Assembly (NCBI GenBank): GCA_022818135.1
Contig: JAFMSR010000019.1
Location: forward strand, 29,997,679 to 30,061,678
Length of the DNA stretch: 64,000 nt
Direction: 5' to 3'
Origin: Saxidomus purpurata
Lineage: Eukaryota > Mollusca > Bivalvia > Venerida > Veneridae
A program made the position numbers and the translations under genes. The notes beneath the pieces are model-generated. The model ran no database searches and was not told where the DNA came from. It saw nothing but the letters and a program-made list of their open reading frames with translations. The number at the start of each line of letters is the position of its first letter. Within the stretch, counting starts at the first letter, position 1. Positions 51,408 to 57,635 of the stretch are shown here, piece after piece.

Positions 51408-51464
51408 TGTTTGCTTTGTATGCTAGTGTGTGTTGGTAGTGTATATGTGTGTGTGTGCCGTGTG

Positions 51465-51495
<31 letters not shown>

Positions 51496-51587
51496 TGGTG
51501 GTGTGCACTTCTGGGTGCTGTGGGGCTCGTTTTGGGGAGGCTGCGTTTTTGGTACGTGGCATTCCCTGTTTGATATTATTTTTGTTT
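51408..51587 (+). repeat. Naiad pseudo-LTR, 5' copy (contains TG microsatellite)
   Basis: About 180 bp, nearly identical to 55547-55726 at a constant offset of 4,139 bp. It includes a TG/CG-rich microsatellite and ends TGATATTATTTTTGTTT. Penelope-like elements typically carry such pseudo-LTRs, produced by partial tandem insertion; this is not a retroviral LTR. Short ORFs across it on both strands are translations of the microsatellite. Confidence 0.88.
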
Positions 51588-51654
51588 TTATGCTCACAAC
51601 TGTGTTGTTTGTGCCGTGTGGCGGCCGTAAAAAGTCTCCCCGTACATTCAATCA

Positions 51655-54600
51655 ATGTTGTTATATTTTCATCCTTCAGGGATTGTTATTCGTTCTAAAC
51701 CCTCGGCCTCTGTCAAGATGAGGAGTATTTTATACCGTGTTGAAGGTTCTGTGTTCACTGGCATTCGGGTCCATGCTAGTTATCCCGTCCTATTGTATTG
51801 TGCGACCTCCAGCGCGATTAACCAGGTTGTGTTTAATTGTCGCTTAATATTTTCACTTGACGAATTGATACTGATGACTTTTCTACCCGAACGCCACTTT
51901 TCACAGAATGGTATTACAAAATTACATTACATGAGTACATATAATATAGTTCCGAAATTAATTCTTTCACCTCTTCGGTTACACTCTGCATCATCTGTAC
52001 ATCTGCCTAATAACAACAGTACTTTTTTAAGACATACACCATCTATCTGCCTTTCTCCTTTAAAGCTACATTCTGCACAGTCATTTTATATTCCACGTAC
52101 TCATTTTAATTCTCCAGCTGTTTTTCGTAATAATCTACGTATTCGTCTATCACCTTTAACTTCTACTATACTGAAGAAATATAAAATAAAACATACAAAT
52201 TTTCCGCAGAGATGTAGAGGGTACCGTTCTATTAACAAGTGCAATGCTAAGAGGTGCGGTTGTTGCAATCATTTATCGCACAGGTCTACAATTACCTCAA
52301 ATGTTAACGGCAGAACTTTTAATGTGGTACTTAACTCTGACGTTGATTGAAATGCGTCCCACATGATTTATGTACTGACTTGAAACGCACCCAATTGTGG
52401 TATTCAGTATGTTGGGCAAACTGGGCGATCTTTAAAAATTCGTTTCCGCGAGCATTCTTACAAAATGCGAAGTCGGAAGAAGTTCACTACATTTTTATAT
52501 CAACACTTTCGTAAATCTGGCCATACAATTGATCAGGTAACCATTCAGCCAGTAGAGCAAATCGTCTATGATATAAATTGTACATCTAGTTTTAAAATCA
52601 AAGCCAGACATTTAGCAGAATTCAAATGGATTAAAAATTTACAGTCACCGTTTCCGTTGGGCTTAAATGATAATATTTATCAAGAAGGTAATATCTCTAA
52701 TAACCCTGATATCGATATATTTTCAATTTTAAATATTAGGAAACGTAAATCTAGGTCTCATGGAATTAGACGCAATGGTAATATTAAGCGCAAATCAAAA
52801 GTCAATATTTCTGTTGCAGACCTCGATATAATTCTTTCAAACTCTGGTAGACATTCAATGCTTTCTCGTCTCACATCTTTATCTATTCAGTCTCTTAAAC
52901 AACTAGACGAGGAAGCGGACCAGTACGTTATTCAAACAGATCCGTTTTACACTGTGTCATATCTTATCCAACATTACACACAACACGTTCTCCGTCCACA
53001 CATTGACACTCAATCTGATCATGATAGACATTTTCTTAAAATTCATTTCATTAATAAAGGTATTGACTTCATCGATGTACCCAGTATATTTCGTGATAGA
53101 CGTGTCATTGATTCTGTGCCTAAGTATTTCCGAAACTCCGAAGTTCCTATTATCTGTTATAAATATAAAACACCTGTTAGAAATGTTATATTCAATTACA
53201 ATAAAATTGTTTCCGACCTAGATGTTCAAACAAATACCCCTTCTTACTGCGAATGTAAAAACTCGAAATTTTGCTATTCAGATGCCGGTCATGTCATCAC
53301 TGGTAATTTTGATATTATTAAAGACAAGCGTATTCGTAATTTATTCTTTAAAGGACCAAAATACAGAATTCCTTCTGCTATTGATTTTCATGCTTGTCGT
53401 GGTCATATTGCGGAATCCATCGAAACTTTTTGTGTTAAATGGTGTCGTCGTGAGAATGCTGATCCAAATGCATTAACGTCTTGGAAACGAAGTATTTTTA
53501 ACATTGTCGATTCTCGTATAAAATTTTACCAAACAAATGAACACCTACTTCCATCAAAACCCAAGTTTACTTTAAGACATCTGAAAAAGGAAATCCAAGA
53601 ATTTCATTCTAAGTATGTCTTAGTTCCAGCAGACAAGGCGGCCAACAATATTATCATCATTTGACGCCTACATTATATTAATGTTTTACAAAACGAACTA
53701 AATAGCACTAAAGCTTATATATTGAGTCCTTCCGTTGAACAAAATGTGGTCACTGATCACATCAGTGAAGTTTCTAATTTGAAAGTTCGTATAGATGATC
53801 AACATATTAAACTTCCTACTATGTACTGGATTCCTAAATTACATAAACAACCATATAAAGCTCGTTTCATCGCTAATTCAAGCTCTTGTACCACTACAAA
53901 TATTTCAAAACTATTAACATCTTGCCTAACTGCTATAAAAGCCCACGTGAAAAGATATTGTGATAAAGTATACGAAAACTCTGGTAAACATTTATTTTGG
54001 TCGATCAAAAATTCTGGCGAAATCCTGGATAAGTTTAAAGTTAATAATTACAAAGTAACTTCAGTCAGTACATACGATTTTTCTACTCTGTATACCACTT
54101 TACCACATAATTTGATAAATGACAAGCTAACTGCCCTAATTCAAAAGACTTTTGCCAGGGAGAATGTTACATTTCTCGCCTGCAATTTCGATAAAGCTTT
54201 TTTTACTAGCTGTATTGTTAAACATTATACTATGTGGACCTGTGACGAAGTTTGTAAAGCCCTTTCCTTTTTATTGAACAACATTTATATAAGGTTTGGG
54301 AATGCAGTTTTCAGACAAGTAATCGGTATTCCCATGGGAACAAATTGTGCACCCCTTGTCGCAGATTTGTTTTTATATTGTTATGAAAGAGACTTTATGT
54401 TGAGTCTTTCTCCAGACACGCAGGCAGACATTATCACTGCTTTTAATAATACATCACGCTATCTGGATGATATTCTTAATATAGATAACCCGTTTTTTGG
54501 TCAATTGGTGGACACTATTTATCCCCGGGAACTCCAGTTAATTAAAACTAACAATTTGGATACTGGTGCTTCATTTTTAGATTTACATCTCTCTATTTAT

Positions 54601-55119
54601 AACAATATTATACATACCAAAATTTATGACAAGAGGGATGATTTTAATTTTAGTATTGTAAATTTCCCCCATTTGGATGGGGATGTACCTCGTGCTACAT
54701 CTTACGGGGTATACATTTCTCAGTTAATTCGGTTTGCCAGAGCGTGTAGTTATGTTGAGGATTTCAATGAACGTAATCAATATATTACAAATAAACTTCT
54801 TCAACAGGGCTACCGTTATTACAAATTGCGTAAATATTTTGCTAAATTTTACTATCGTAATTCTGATTTGGTTTTGAAATTCAATAGTAATCTAAAGACT
54901 CTTCTGCGAGAAGGTATTTCAAAACCCGATTTTTATGGGGATGTGGTTTACAAACTTCGTAAGATTTTGGGTCATGGCAATTTTCCAACTGTATTTGCTA
55001 AAATTATAAAACGTTTTGTTAAAAGAGGTTACGACCCAACTGTTTTGAGACACACCGCATGTTTGGTGTTCAACCCGTTTACAGTTGGACGCTATGCTTC
55101 CCTCTTTGATTGTGTCTGA
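51655..55119 (+). CDS. Naiad-type Penelope-like retroelement ORF with three in-frame UGA (probable Sec) codons
   Basis: A single frame of 1,154 codons counted from 51655 (the start is uncertain; an ATG at 51718 is an alternative). It is interrupted only by TGA at 52348-52350, 52381-52383 and 53662-53664 (codons 232, 243, 670). Domain order: Cys-rich linker (KRCGCCNHL); GIY-YIG endonuclease with MIY at 52363-52371 and YVGQTGRS from 52408; CxC motif CECKNSKFCYSDAGH from 53248; reverse transcriptase with motif A around Asp808 (TYDFSTLYTTLPH), motif B (GIPMGTNCAPLVADL) and motif C YLDD at codons 936-939. N-terminal GIY-YIG plus CxC plus RT is the arrangement described for Naiad elements; canonical Penelope elements carry the endonuclease at the C terminus. 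No TAA, TAG or frameshift is seen. All three UGAs sit where relatives, as I recall them, have Cys (before GIY, between GIY and YIG, and after the ADKA..N segment of the RT). A SECIS follows the stop, so I read them as selenocysteine. The alternative, nonsense mutations, is much less likely. Confidence 0.93.
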
Positions 55120-55130
55120 CGGAAGAGGGG

Positions 55131-55194
55131 GAGGACTCTGTGATGGGCAGTTTTTAAATCCCACTGGGACGAAACTGTTTTGATTTCTGTCCTC
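55131..55194 (+). promoter_or_regulatory. SECIS element in the 3' UTR of the Naiad ORF
   Basis: Folded by eye. Helix I: GAGGAC (55131-55136) pairs with GTCCTC (55189-55194). A symmetrical TCT/TCT internal loop and a G-U pair lead to the quartet, TGAT (55141-55144) opposite TGAT (55181-55184), giving U-U, G-A, A-G, U-U. Helix II: GGGCAGTTT (55145-55153) pairs with AAACTGTTT (55172-55180). The apical loop has the unpaired AAA at 55156-55158, 11 nt after the 5' quartet. A mini-stem TCCC/GGGA (55159-55162 with 55166-55169) makes it type II. These are the invariant features of eukaryotic SECIS elements, which recruit SBP2 so that UGA is read as selenocysteine. The base before the quartet is G, a known variant of the usual A. 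Confidence 0.92.
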
Positions 55195-55546
55195 TGGCCT
55201 GTTTCGTCGGGCCCTTAAGGGTGTTTCTCTTGGTGCTCTGCCTTCTGCAAAGGCATTGAGTACATACGTTTTTTGGTTCTCAAGGTTTGCTTTTTATATA
55301 TTTATACACGAGCATTTTTGTGTTTTACATACCATGCCTTTTGTTTCCATTGCGTGTTGTTAGAGATTCACCTAGCAGGGATTACTTTTATTTACACTGT
55401 CCTGTGACTTTGGAACATGGTGGGGGTAAGAGTGAGGTTGGGTGCGCACCATAAACCGGTTTAAGCTCCCCAGTGGTGTTTTTGCCACTGACCGTTCCAA
55501 GGCGGTGCCCCACTGTGTTCCTTTAATTGTTCGTTTTGTCCTCGTG

Positions 55547-55603
55547 TGTTTGCTTTGTATGCTAGTGTGTGTTGGTAGTGTATATGTGTGTGTGTGCCGT
55601 GTG

Positions 55604-55634
<31 letters not shown>

Positions 55635-55726
55635 TGGTGGTGTGCACTTCTGGGTGCTGTGGGGCTCGTTTTGGGGAGGCTGCGTTTTTGGTACGTGGCA
55701 TTCCCTGTTTGATATTATTTTTGTTT
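55547..55726 (+). repeat. Naiad pseudo-LTR, 3' copy
   Basis: Second copy of the pseudo-LTR. One element unit therefore runs about 51588-55726 (4.14 kb), preceded by the truncated end of an upstream unit. The stretch between the SECIS and this repeat (55195-55546) is non-coding 3' UTR of the element. Confidence 0.88.
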
Positions 55727-55790
55727 GTATAGACTGTAAAATGACCATACTGGCATAATGTGCTGATATTCTGATGTTTTTCATTTACAG

Positions 55791-57635
55791 AGAGAACACT
55801 GATACATATAAGCTGTTGCATACAGGCAAACTGTGGGAAATGGTTAACACAGTTGTTCGAGAGCACATGACGACAACACCACACTGTGACGGGGATCTCA
55901 TGTTCGATACATCTTCCTCAAAGCAGTGGGGTGCGTATTGAGTGCAAAAACTGTTCATACAAATCAAGGTGGTTTAAACTTTACAAAGAAATTGACACAA
56001 ACAAGCGCGGTGCTAAGACTGCCACAGTAAACAGAGGCGTCTGTGTTGCAATGACACAAACACCAATTTCATCAAGTAGCTTGCGAAAGATATGCCTTGG
56101 TGGAAATATTCCAGCCCCATCTTTCAAATGCTTACAGGAAAATGCTAACAAAGTGAATGATGTTGTGTTACAGGAAAACAGGAAGGACATGCAGCAGCAT
56201 AAGAGAGGAGCTGAAAACAATAAATAAATACAGAGGAGATCCAGAACATGTCGTCACTGTTCAAGTTGATGGAATGTACAACAACAACCTGTACAGCGGT
56301 GTAGGACGTACTCCCTATCAACCTGCCACACAGGCAACCTACACTGTTGCTGAAACTGTCACAAGAAAACAGCAAATTATAGCAGCAGATGCAGTCAATA
56401 AATTATGCTCAAAGCATGGCTTCCACACACAAGAAGATGCGGAATGTGATGTGAAGTGCAAGCCATGCTCAGCTACAGTTTCAATTGAAACAACCATTGG
56501 TAATGAGAGAAGATGGACAGGTAACTGTCTAAAAGACATGAAGGAAGATGGACTGGAAGTTAGTTACTTGACTTCAGATGCAGATACCGGTGCTTTCCAG
56601 GCAGCGGCGGACCTTTACAACCAGGGGATCACCAACACCGAGCCATGCCATCTGTTTGACACCCGGCATTTAGCTGAAAACCATAGAAAGCAAATGCGTA
56701 ACTGCCAGAAAATTTTGGGTATGATGCCTTGACATGTCTCAGCGTACCGTACCTACCTCCGTGGCAGGTTTTCACTTGATCTAAGTAAGAGATGTACAGC
56801 AGAGTTCAGTGCCAGGTATGAAAAAGAGAGCGGCAATTTCCTAAAAATTAGAGAGGGGATGAAGTATTGTGTAAATGCAATTAAACGGTGCTATGCTGGT
56901 GACCACTGTGGTTGTCGGCTCCATTCCCTTGTTTGCAAAGGTCTACCGACTGACAACTGGCTAGCTGCAAGTCCTTTCCTTACAAGAAATTTTAGAATTG
57001 ATCTATCTCGCCCCGAGAACCATGACATCATGCTTCAATGGATAGAATTTCGTCTGGGGGAAGACATGCTTAAAAAAACACGGCTTAATTCCAACACCCA
57101 AAACGTTGAGGGAACCAACAGATCAATTAAACGCAGCTTACCTAAGAATGTGACTTTCACCAGAAACTTCCCGGGTAGACTAAACAGTGCTATTCACTCC
57201 GTTAGTAATGGTCCAGGACAGTCCGTTATAAAACTATGTTCGGCAGCTCAATGCCCAATACCACCAACTGGAAGAGTTGCTGCTCAGCTAAACGAACTGC
57301 AACGGCTAGCTGAAAAGAAAAATAATAGGGAGGCAACTCTAGAATTTAAGCAGAAAAGAAGAAAACGGCGCAGTAAAATGTACAAATTACACGAGACAAA
57401 AAGAGAAACAAATAAATATATCAAAGCAAAGTTACTGAAAACCCGGATACAAGAATTGCGAAAAAATAAATGCAAAAACACTGATACAGTTATACAGCCG
57501 AGAGCAAGTACAAGTGACCACTCCGGATATACAAGGCCATTTCAAAGCCGGGGTGGTAAGAGGCATGGTGGACAATGCTCACAGGTCAAGATATTGCATT
57601 TAAATCCGAGACATGTTAGTAGAATGCAGCTCTAA
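55791..57635 (+). pseudogene. Mutator-like transposase, decayed by two frameshifts and a stop
   Basis: Starts after a good acceptor (TTTTTCATTTACAG, to 55790). The coding sense passes through three blocks: 55791-about 55930 (TYKLLHTGKLWEMVN...), about 55930-56185 (VRIECKNC...ANIPAPSF-like block), then one frame from about 56185 to 57635. Frameshifts lie near 55930 (a G run) and near 56180, and a TGA interrupts at 56730-56732. Recognisable blocks: CxxC (IECKNC), VTVQVDGMYNN, YSGVGRTPYQPATQATYTV, TSDADTGAF, FDTRHLAENHRKQ and NVEGTNRSIKR. These are typical of the Mutator-like transposase family abundant in bivalves and cnidarians. The Asp of VDG, Asp of SDAD and Glu of VEG are plausible DDE residues (inference). 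The C-terminus is Lys/Arg-rich. It is inactive as it stands. Confidence 0.82.

Follow-up and report, generated by a model that had tools for sequence, protein, structure and literature searches.

A recently active Naiad-type retrotransposon of Saxidomus purpurata whose single protein is very probably a selenoprotein with three selenocysteines

Analysis of a 64,000-nt stretch of the Saxidomus purpurata genome (the window) identified a Penelope-like retrotransposon of Naiad type that very probably has been active recently and encodes its one protein as a selenoprotein, with selenocysteine (Sec) at residues 232, 243 and 670 specified through a SECIS element. The locus has the features of a selenoprotein gene: a SECIS in the 3′ UTR, UGA codons at columns occupied by Cys in relatives, and tRNA-Sec matches in the host genome. 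Sec-encoding Naiads of clams and spiders have reportedly been described by Craig, Yushenova, Rodriguez and Arkhipova (Craig et al. 2021). The element presented here resembles those members in apparently coding for Sec, and is a well-supported, independent new example of a kind already known. A literature search by title and the start of the abstract found no other paper on Sec in a Penelope-like element; in one spider genome paper (PMC9912274) 'Penelope' and 'selenocysteine' occur once each.

The frame extends from 51655 to 55119 (window positions, here and below on the + strand unless stated) and comprises 1,154 codons, and its translation has internal stops only at codons 232, 243 and 670. 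All three are TGA (52348–52350, 52381–52383 and 53662–53664, referred to as UGA 1, UGA 2 and UGA 3), in a frame free of TAA, TAG and frameshifts. UGA 1 lies just before the GIY-like motif MIY (residues 237–239), which begins five residues past it. UGA 2 falls between MIY and YVG (residues 252–254), and UGA 3 directly follows the ADKAANNIIII segment of the reverse transcriptase (RT). Translation bore out a preliminary description of this DNA as holding three in-frame TGAs in an otherwise intact frame, and its coordinates and motif positions were correct. Its count of about 1,154 codons also stands for the frame, but the translated part probably begins at codon 93 (51931) and not at codon 1. Position 93 or 94 is where 33 of 74 N-terminal relatives start, and residues 1–189 had pLDDT values under 50 in the structural model described below. 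By the starts of the same relatives, 51592–51930, which holds codons 1–92, is probably an untranslated 5′ leader. The Naiad ORF, with its GIY-YIG endonuclease, CxC linker, RT and three in-frame UGAs, would then occupy 51931–55119.

The ORF is flanked by pseudo-LTRs, which form a 184-nt direct repeat (99% identical, spacing 4,139). The left repeat (51408–51591) contains a (GT)n run and is the 3′ end of a 5′-truncated upstream tandem unit. The right repeat (55547–55730) includes the 3′ end of the element, after which other flanks follow in other copies. Longer partial units were found upstream in several other copies. Short tandem repeats of 3′-UTR or GT-rich pseudo-LTR pieces also lie beside copies, at positions 41–533 of L027 and 4881–5123 of L022. 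To the right of the element, in the region of 56157–56732 and 56859–57635, lies a piece of Mutator-like transposase (PF20700, E 7.6e-11), next to an ORF that had no Pfam match up to E 0.1.

Naiad elements are defined by an N-terminal GIY-YIG endonuclease and an RT in one ORF with a CxC motif between them, and are not known to carry a canonical hammerhead ribozyme. The window element is alike in each respect. Its endonuclease motifs (MIY to YVG, residues 237–254) precede DFSTLYT (54076–54096) and YLDD (54460–54471), which we take to be RT catalytic region A and the RT catalytic box. In an alignment of 53 rows including the window protein (A1), residues D808, F809 and L812 of the former and D938 of the latter were invariant, and Y936 and D939 nearly so. 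The linker motif C532-x-C534 (53248–53256) lies between the two domains, and each of its cysteines reached at least 90% conservation in A1. A further likeness to the Naiad clade is the presence of pseudo-LTRs with partial tandem units upstream, and no hammerhead ribozyme was found in the window at the Rfam gathering threshold.

The window protein gave no match when searched against Pfam or against PDB sequences, and the domain calls therefore draw on relatives, motifs and a structural model. Among the 53 A1 rows, 39 had a Pfam GIY-YIG match and 26 an RVT_1 match, the window protein being in neither group. The model, built from the 53 rows with Cys at the UGA sites, had a mean pLDDT of 77.2, a pTM of 0.63 and 611 residues at 90 or more. 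Penelope-like RTs are related to telomerase RT, and the first 14 Foldseek matches of the model in the PDB were telomerase (best E 3.5e-10), with low TM-scores of 0.21–0.29 by query length. By these features the element would be a Naiad. Canonical Penelope/Poseidon elements, as described in PMC11167929, share a GIY-YIG endonuclease, an RT and pLTRs derived from tandem repeats. In that description the endonuclease is C-terminal and the element carries a hammerhead ribozyme motif, whereas the window element has an N-terminal endonuclease and no Rfam hammerhead match.

The model also bears on whether the UGAs are real stops, with separate endonuclease and RT proteins made by re-initiation. UGA 3 was placed where strand 662–670 meets helix 671–684, in a well-modelled part of the RT, and UGA 2 lies inside the GIY-YIG core. 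Although the stops separate ORFs of 231, 399 and 465 aa, as re-initiation would require, UGA 2 and UGA 3 fall within domains, and the fragments would therefore hold incomplete domains. Re-initiation also leaves the SECIS unexplained, and we regard it as extremely unlikely.

The SECIS provides the strongest support for the Sec coding claimed in the preliminary description, which had overlooked it. An Rfam scan of the whole 64-kb window at the gathering threshold gave two matches only, a tRNA at 1282–1353 (− strand, 33.9 bits) and SECIS_1 (RF00031) at 55132–55193 (38.7 bits against a gathering threshold of 35, E 3.1e-4 in the window). This SECIS, the sole one found by Rfam in the window, begins 12 nt past the terminal stop, and UGAs 1–3 lie about 1.5–2.8 kb upstream of it. 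The stretch 55110–55220 folded with a z-score of −4.07, and 0 of 200 shuffles were as stable. In the fold, the base stem of the SECIS extends to 55114–55212, and the terminal codon (55117–55119), which is also TGA, is base-paired within its 5′ arm. Among 30 genomic copies that cover all three UGA sites (see below), 29 kept the terminal TGA and one (L031) had TCA. All four additional copies that were scanned for it (L009, L013, L020, L036) also carried the SECIS. Nine of the 62 SECIS columns varied among the 30 copies, each in a single copy, and none of them fell in what we presume to be the core by our own placing (TGAT at 55141–55144, AAA at 55156–55158 and TGAT at 55181–55184). Variation in the SECIS (0.0048) equalled that in the ORF (0.0048) and was slightly below that in the rest of the 3′ UTR (0.0063), and there is therefore no strong sign of constraint.

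Five tRNA-Sec matches were found by Rfam in the host genome (G000), on contigs C4, C6 (two), C2 and C1700, scoring 71.8–78.8 bits against a cut-off of 47 bits. Some of these may be alternative haplotypes or pseudogenes.

The three UGA codons coincide with columns that are Cys in most relatives. When the best 120 of 177 matching relatives were aligned, Cys occupied column 232 in 59 of 65 filled rows, column 243 in 61 of 67, and column 670 in 112 of 120, the other eight having Trp. Several of the non-Cys rows at columns 232 and 243 (P0002, P0010, P0011, P0013) had no recognisable endonuclease in the alignment. These counts bear out the conserved Cys of Penelope-like proteins that the preliminary description had placed at these sites. 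Twelve query columns were more than 70% Cys in relatives, as counted over columns with at least 30 filled rows, and the chance that three random codons of 1,154 would all fall in these twelve is about 9e-7. At the DNA level, the Cys-type relative L039 combines an open frame of 1,013 codons with Cys at each of the three columns, and L040, which spans column 670 only, has Cys there; neither had a SECIS at the gathering threshold. Both loci came from a scan of genome contigs and are pieces of Cys-type Naiads. Their contigs bear the labels of bacterial MAGs (Flavobacteriales; Bathymodiolus symbiont) and are probably animal DNA contaminating those MAGs. Viral contigs scanned with the window protein and alignment A2 yielded no relatives.

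The positions at which related predicted proteins end were also informative. The piece between UGA 2 and UGA 3, used as a query, gave 265 matches. Of the 120 listed, all but P0004, a member of the first set, were analysed (119). Sixty-five of the 119 ended exactly at residue 669, with the stop in the UGA 3 column (42.8–98.7% identical), and 41 ended exactly at 531, which puts the stop at column 532, where CxC has its first Cys (50.6–74.3% identical). The remaining 13 ended elsewhere; if ends were distributed at random, a given position would receive about 0.3 of them. For the N-terminal piece, all 74 matches were analysed: 34 ended exactly at 231, before UGA 1 (39.0–97.1% identical), four ended at 242, before UGA 2, and 36 ended elsewhere. 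The relatives in other families were seen as proteins only, and the identity of the codon as TGA at the DNA level applies to the window's family alone.

Relatives continuing past these columns mostly carried Trp: 12 of 22 at column 232, where one had Cys and nine had other residues (Arg in three, Ser in two, and Lys, Leu, Gly and Asp); 11 of 14 at column 243, with two Cys and one Asp; and all eight at column 670 among the 119 relatives. The Trp residues look like TGA translated with a TGA=Trp table, but in proteins alone could equally be TGG. The nine residues at column 232 that are neither Cys nor Trp probably come from decayed copies. The expectation that each UGA column would be Cys or Sec held for most relatives; these nine of the 22 that continue past column 232, and the one with Asp at column 243, depart from it.

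Trp at the UGA columns of many related predicted proteins, together with Arg at 232 in a few, would also fit read-through by a near-cognate tRNA (Trp, Arg or Cys) with no selenocysteine involved. Such read-through is at odds with the presence of both a SECIS and tRNA-Sec, and with column 670, where all 112 non-Trp relatives of the 120 listed have Cys. Ten rows, moreover, carry Trp at both 532 and 670, which looks like the product of a TGA=Trp table. Near-cognate read-through is therefore considered highly unlikely. Decoding of the UGAs by the host Sec machinery, with Cys-to-Sec replacement in both the endonuclease and the RT, as the preliminary description had proposed, is the reading supported by the SECIS, the tRNA-Sec and the Cys columns.

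Copies of the element were sought in the host genome (1.135 Gb). A DNA search with 54000–55200 found at least 40 places at 100% identity (rounded) and one short one. With P0033, a 37% identical relative, 44 places were scored, 43 of them with exactly three TGA and one with five; TAA or TAG was also present in five of the 44. With P0001 (61–62% identity), 58 places were scored, of which 56 had two TGA and two had three, with TAA also in two. Two TGA are expected in the P0001 span of the window copy, namely UGA 3 and the terminal TGA. The P0001 search was aimed at a second, diverged Sec family, and all 58 matches appeared to belong to the window's own family. Both protein searches returned the best-scoring candidates, with stops given as numbers per place, and their counts are lower bounds.

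UGA 1, UGA 2 and UGA 3 were TGA in all 30 copies covering the three sites, the window's own included. The TAA, TAG or random codons in sister copies that would have spoken against Sec coding were found at none of these sites. There were 28 distinct right flanks among the 30 copies, two pairs sharing a flank. In six copies the frame is incomplete ahead of UGA 1, by as much as 154 aligned codons, and several copies carry an additional stop or frameshift at other positions. L001–L008 were left out of the copy counts, being partial or duplicates of L019 and L017. Agreement among the 30 copies is weak evidence by itself because they differ by only 0.8% on average (mean pairwise divergence). At about 0.5% variation, the nine bases of the three UGAs should show roughly one change across all 30 copies, and the constancy of TGA is therefore not key evidence. 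The copies are young, so deeper conservation weighs more.

Selection on the frame was assessed as pN/pS relative to the window copy, which was 0.32 before UGA 1, 0.52 between UGA 2 and UGA 3, and 0.40 after UGA 3. Apart from the window's own, the copies had been selected for high protein scores; such selection enriches for intact copies and biases these values down. Ratios below 1 had been named as a check in the preliminary description and were obtained in these three segments, but not between UGA 1 and UGA 2 (codons 233–242), where nine nonsynonymous and no synonymous differences over ten codons are too few to judge.

The same data were weighed against a dead element, in which a master copy acquired three stop mutations and an intact partner then propagated it in trans. 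The copies are young and near-identical, and their three TGAs could descend from one ancestor. However, a SECIS directly follows the ORF, the coincidence of three stops with Cys columns has the very small chance given above, and pN/pS is below 1 in the long segments. The 44 and 58 scored host candidates included only the TGA-bearing, family-like set and no Cys-type partner, in searches of a kind that the window's family swamps. Relatives whose frames end at the same columns, down to 43% identity for UGA 3 and 39% for UGA 1, should outweigh the agreement among young copies. A dead element is accordingly given next to no weight, and an element with a functional, Sec-containing protein is preferred.

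A fourth Sec site may exist in related families. Column 532 (53248–53250), the first Cys of CxC, is Cys in the window copy and a stop or Trp in many of those families. Within the smallest clade holding at least 70 Sec- or Trp-type rows, 52 of 119 rows had a stop or Trp at this column, compared with one of 93 outside. The clade was taken from a quick tree of 211 of 239 proteins plus the window (212 rows), with long branches flagged. State changes needed on the tree numbered two at column 670 and 20 at column 532, and when the rows that end at 531 are treated as one group, well-supported branches force at least 12 changes. With the rooting used, the Sec clade has a support of 20 and includes one row with Cys at 670 (P0003) and many rows of unknown state; five Sec- or Trp-type rows lie outside it. 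The positions at which the proteins end and the Trp residues point to column 532 as a putative switchable Sec site in these families. The C-termini of P0001, P0002, P0191 and P0306 have SDSMMVPT-like stretches resembling a translated SECIS start (ATGATG). In these proteins, this suggests that the ORF overlaps its own SECIS in the families concerned.

These observations are consistent with the following mechanism. Host Sec-tRNA, guided by the 3′ UTR SECIS, would decode the UGAs at 232, 243 and 670 as Sec, at positions where cysteine is conserved, both in the GIY-YIG endonuclease and in the N-terminal portion of the RT. Decoding requires a minimal spacing between a UGA and the SECIS. The fourth UGA, 12 nt before the SECIS, would be too close to it, and translation would terminate there. 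The full protein would then nick DNA and reverse-transcribe its own RNA, giving tandem copies that bear pseudo-LTRs. In selenoprotein P, several UGAs are likewise decoded with a 3′-UTR SECIS. The window element resembles it in these two respects and differs in that one SECIS would serve three UGAs, in that the gene is part of a mobile element, and in that the final stop is also UGA.

UGA 2 occupies the position at which Cys-type relatives carry the leading Cys of a CxxC motif, probably part of the metal-binding set of the endonuclease. A selenolate–metal site is therefore plausible at UGA 2. A more speculative reading, to which we give a low but appreciable probability, is that transposition is gated by selenium. 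Here the RT Sec is fixed and the CxC site toggles between Sec and Cys, host selenium and SECIS decoding act as a brake, and the final UGA, 12 nt from the SECIS and paired into its stem, stops translation by distance alone. If this were true, production of the full-length enzyme, and hence transposition, would depend on the host's selenium supply and SECIS decoding.

A selfish element that borrows the costly Sec machinery of its host three times per protein would be a natural experiment on the reasons for retaining Sec at sites where Cys would suffice. With many related families, in which one site is nearly fixed and another switches, the question of Sec versus Cys becomes testable by comparison. 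The young, near-identical copies in S. purpurata would in turn offer a system in which to measure the decoding of multiple UGAs and the selenium dependence of transposition.
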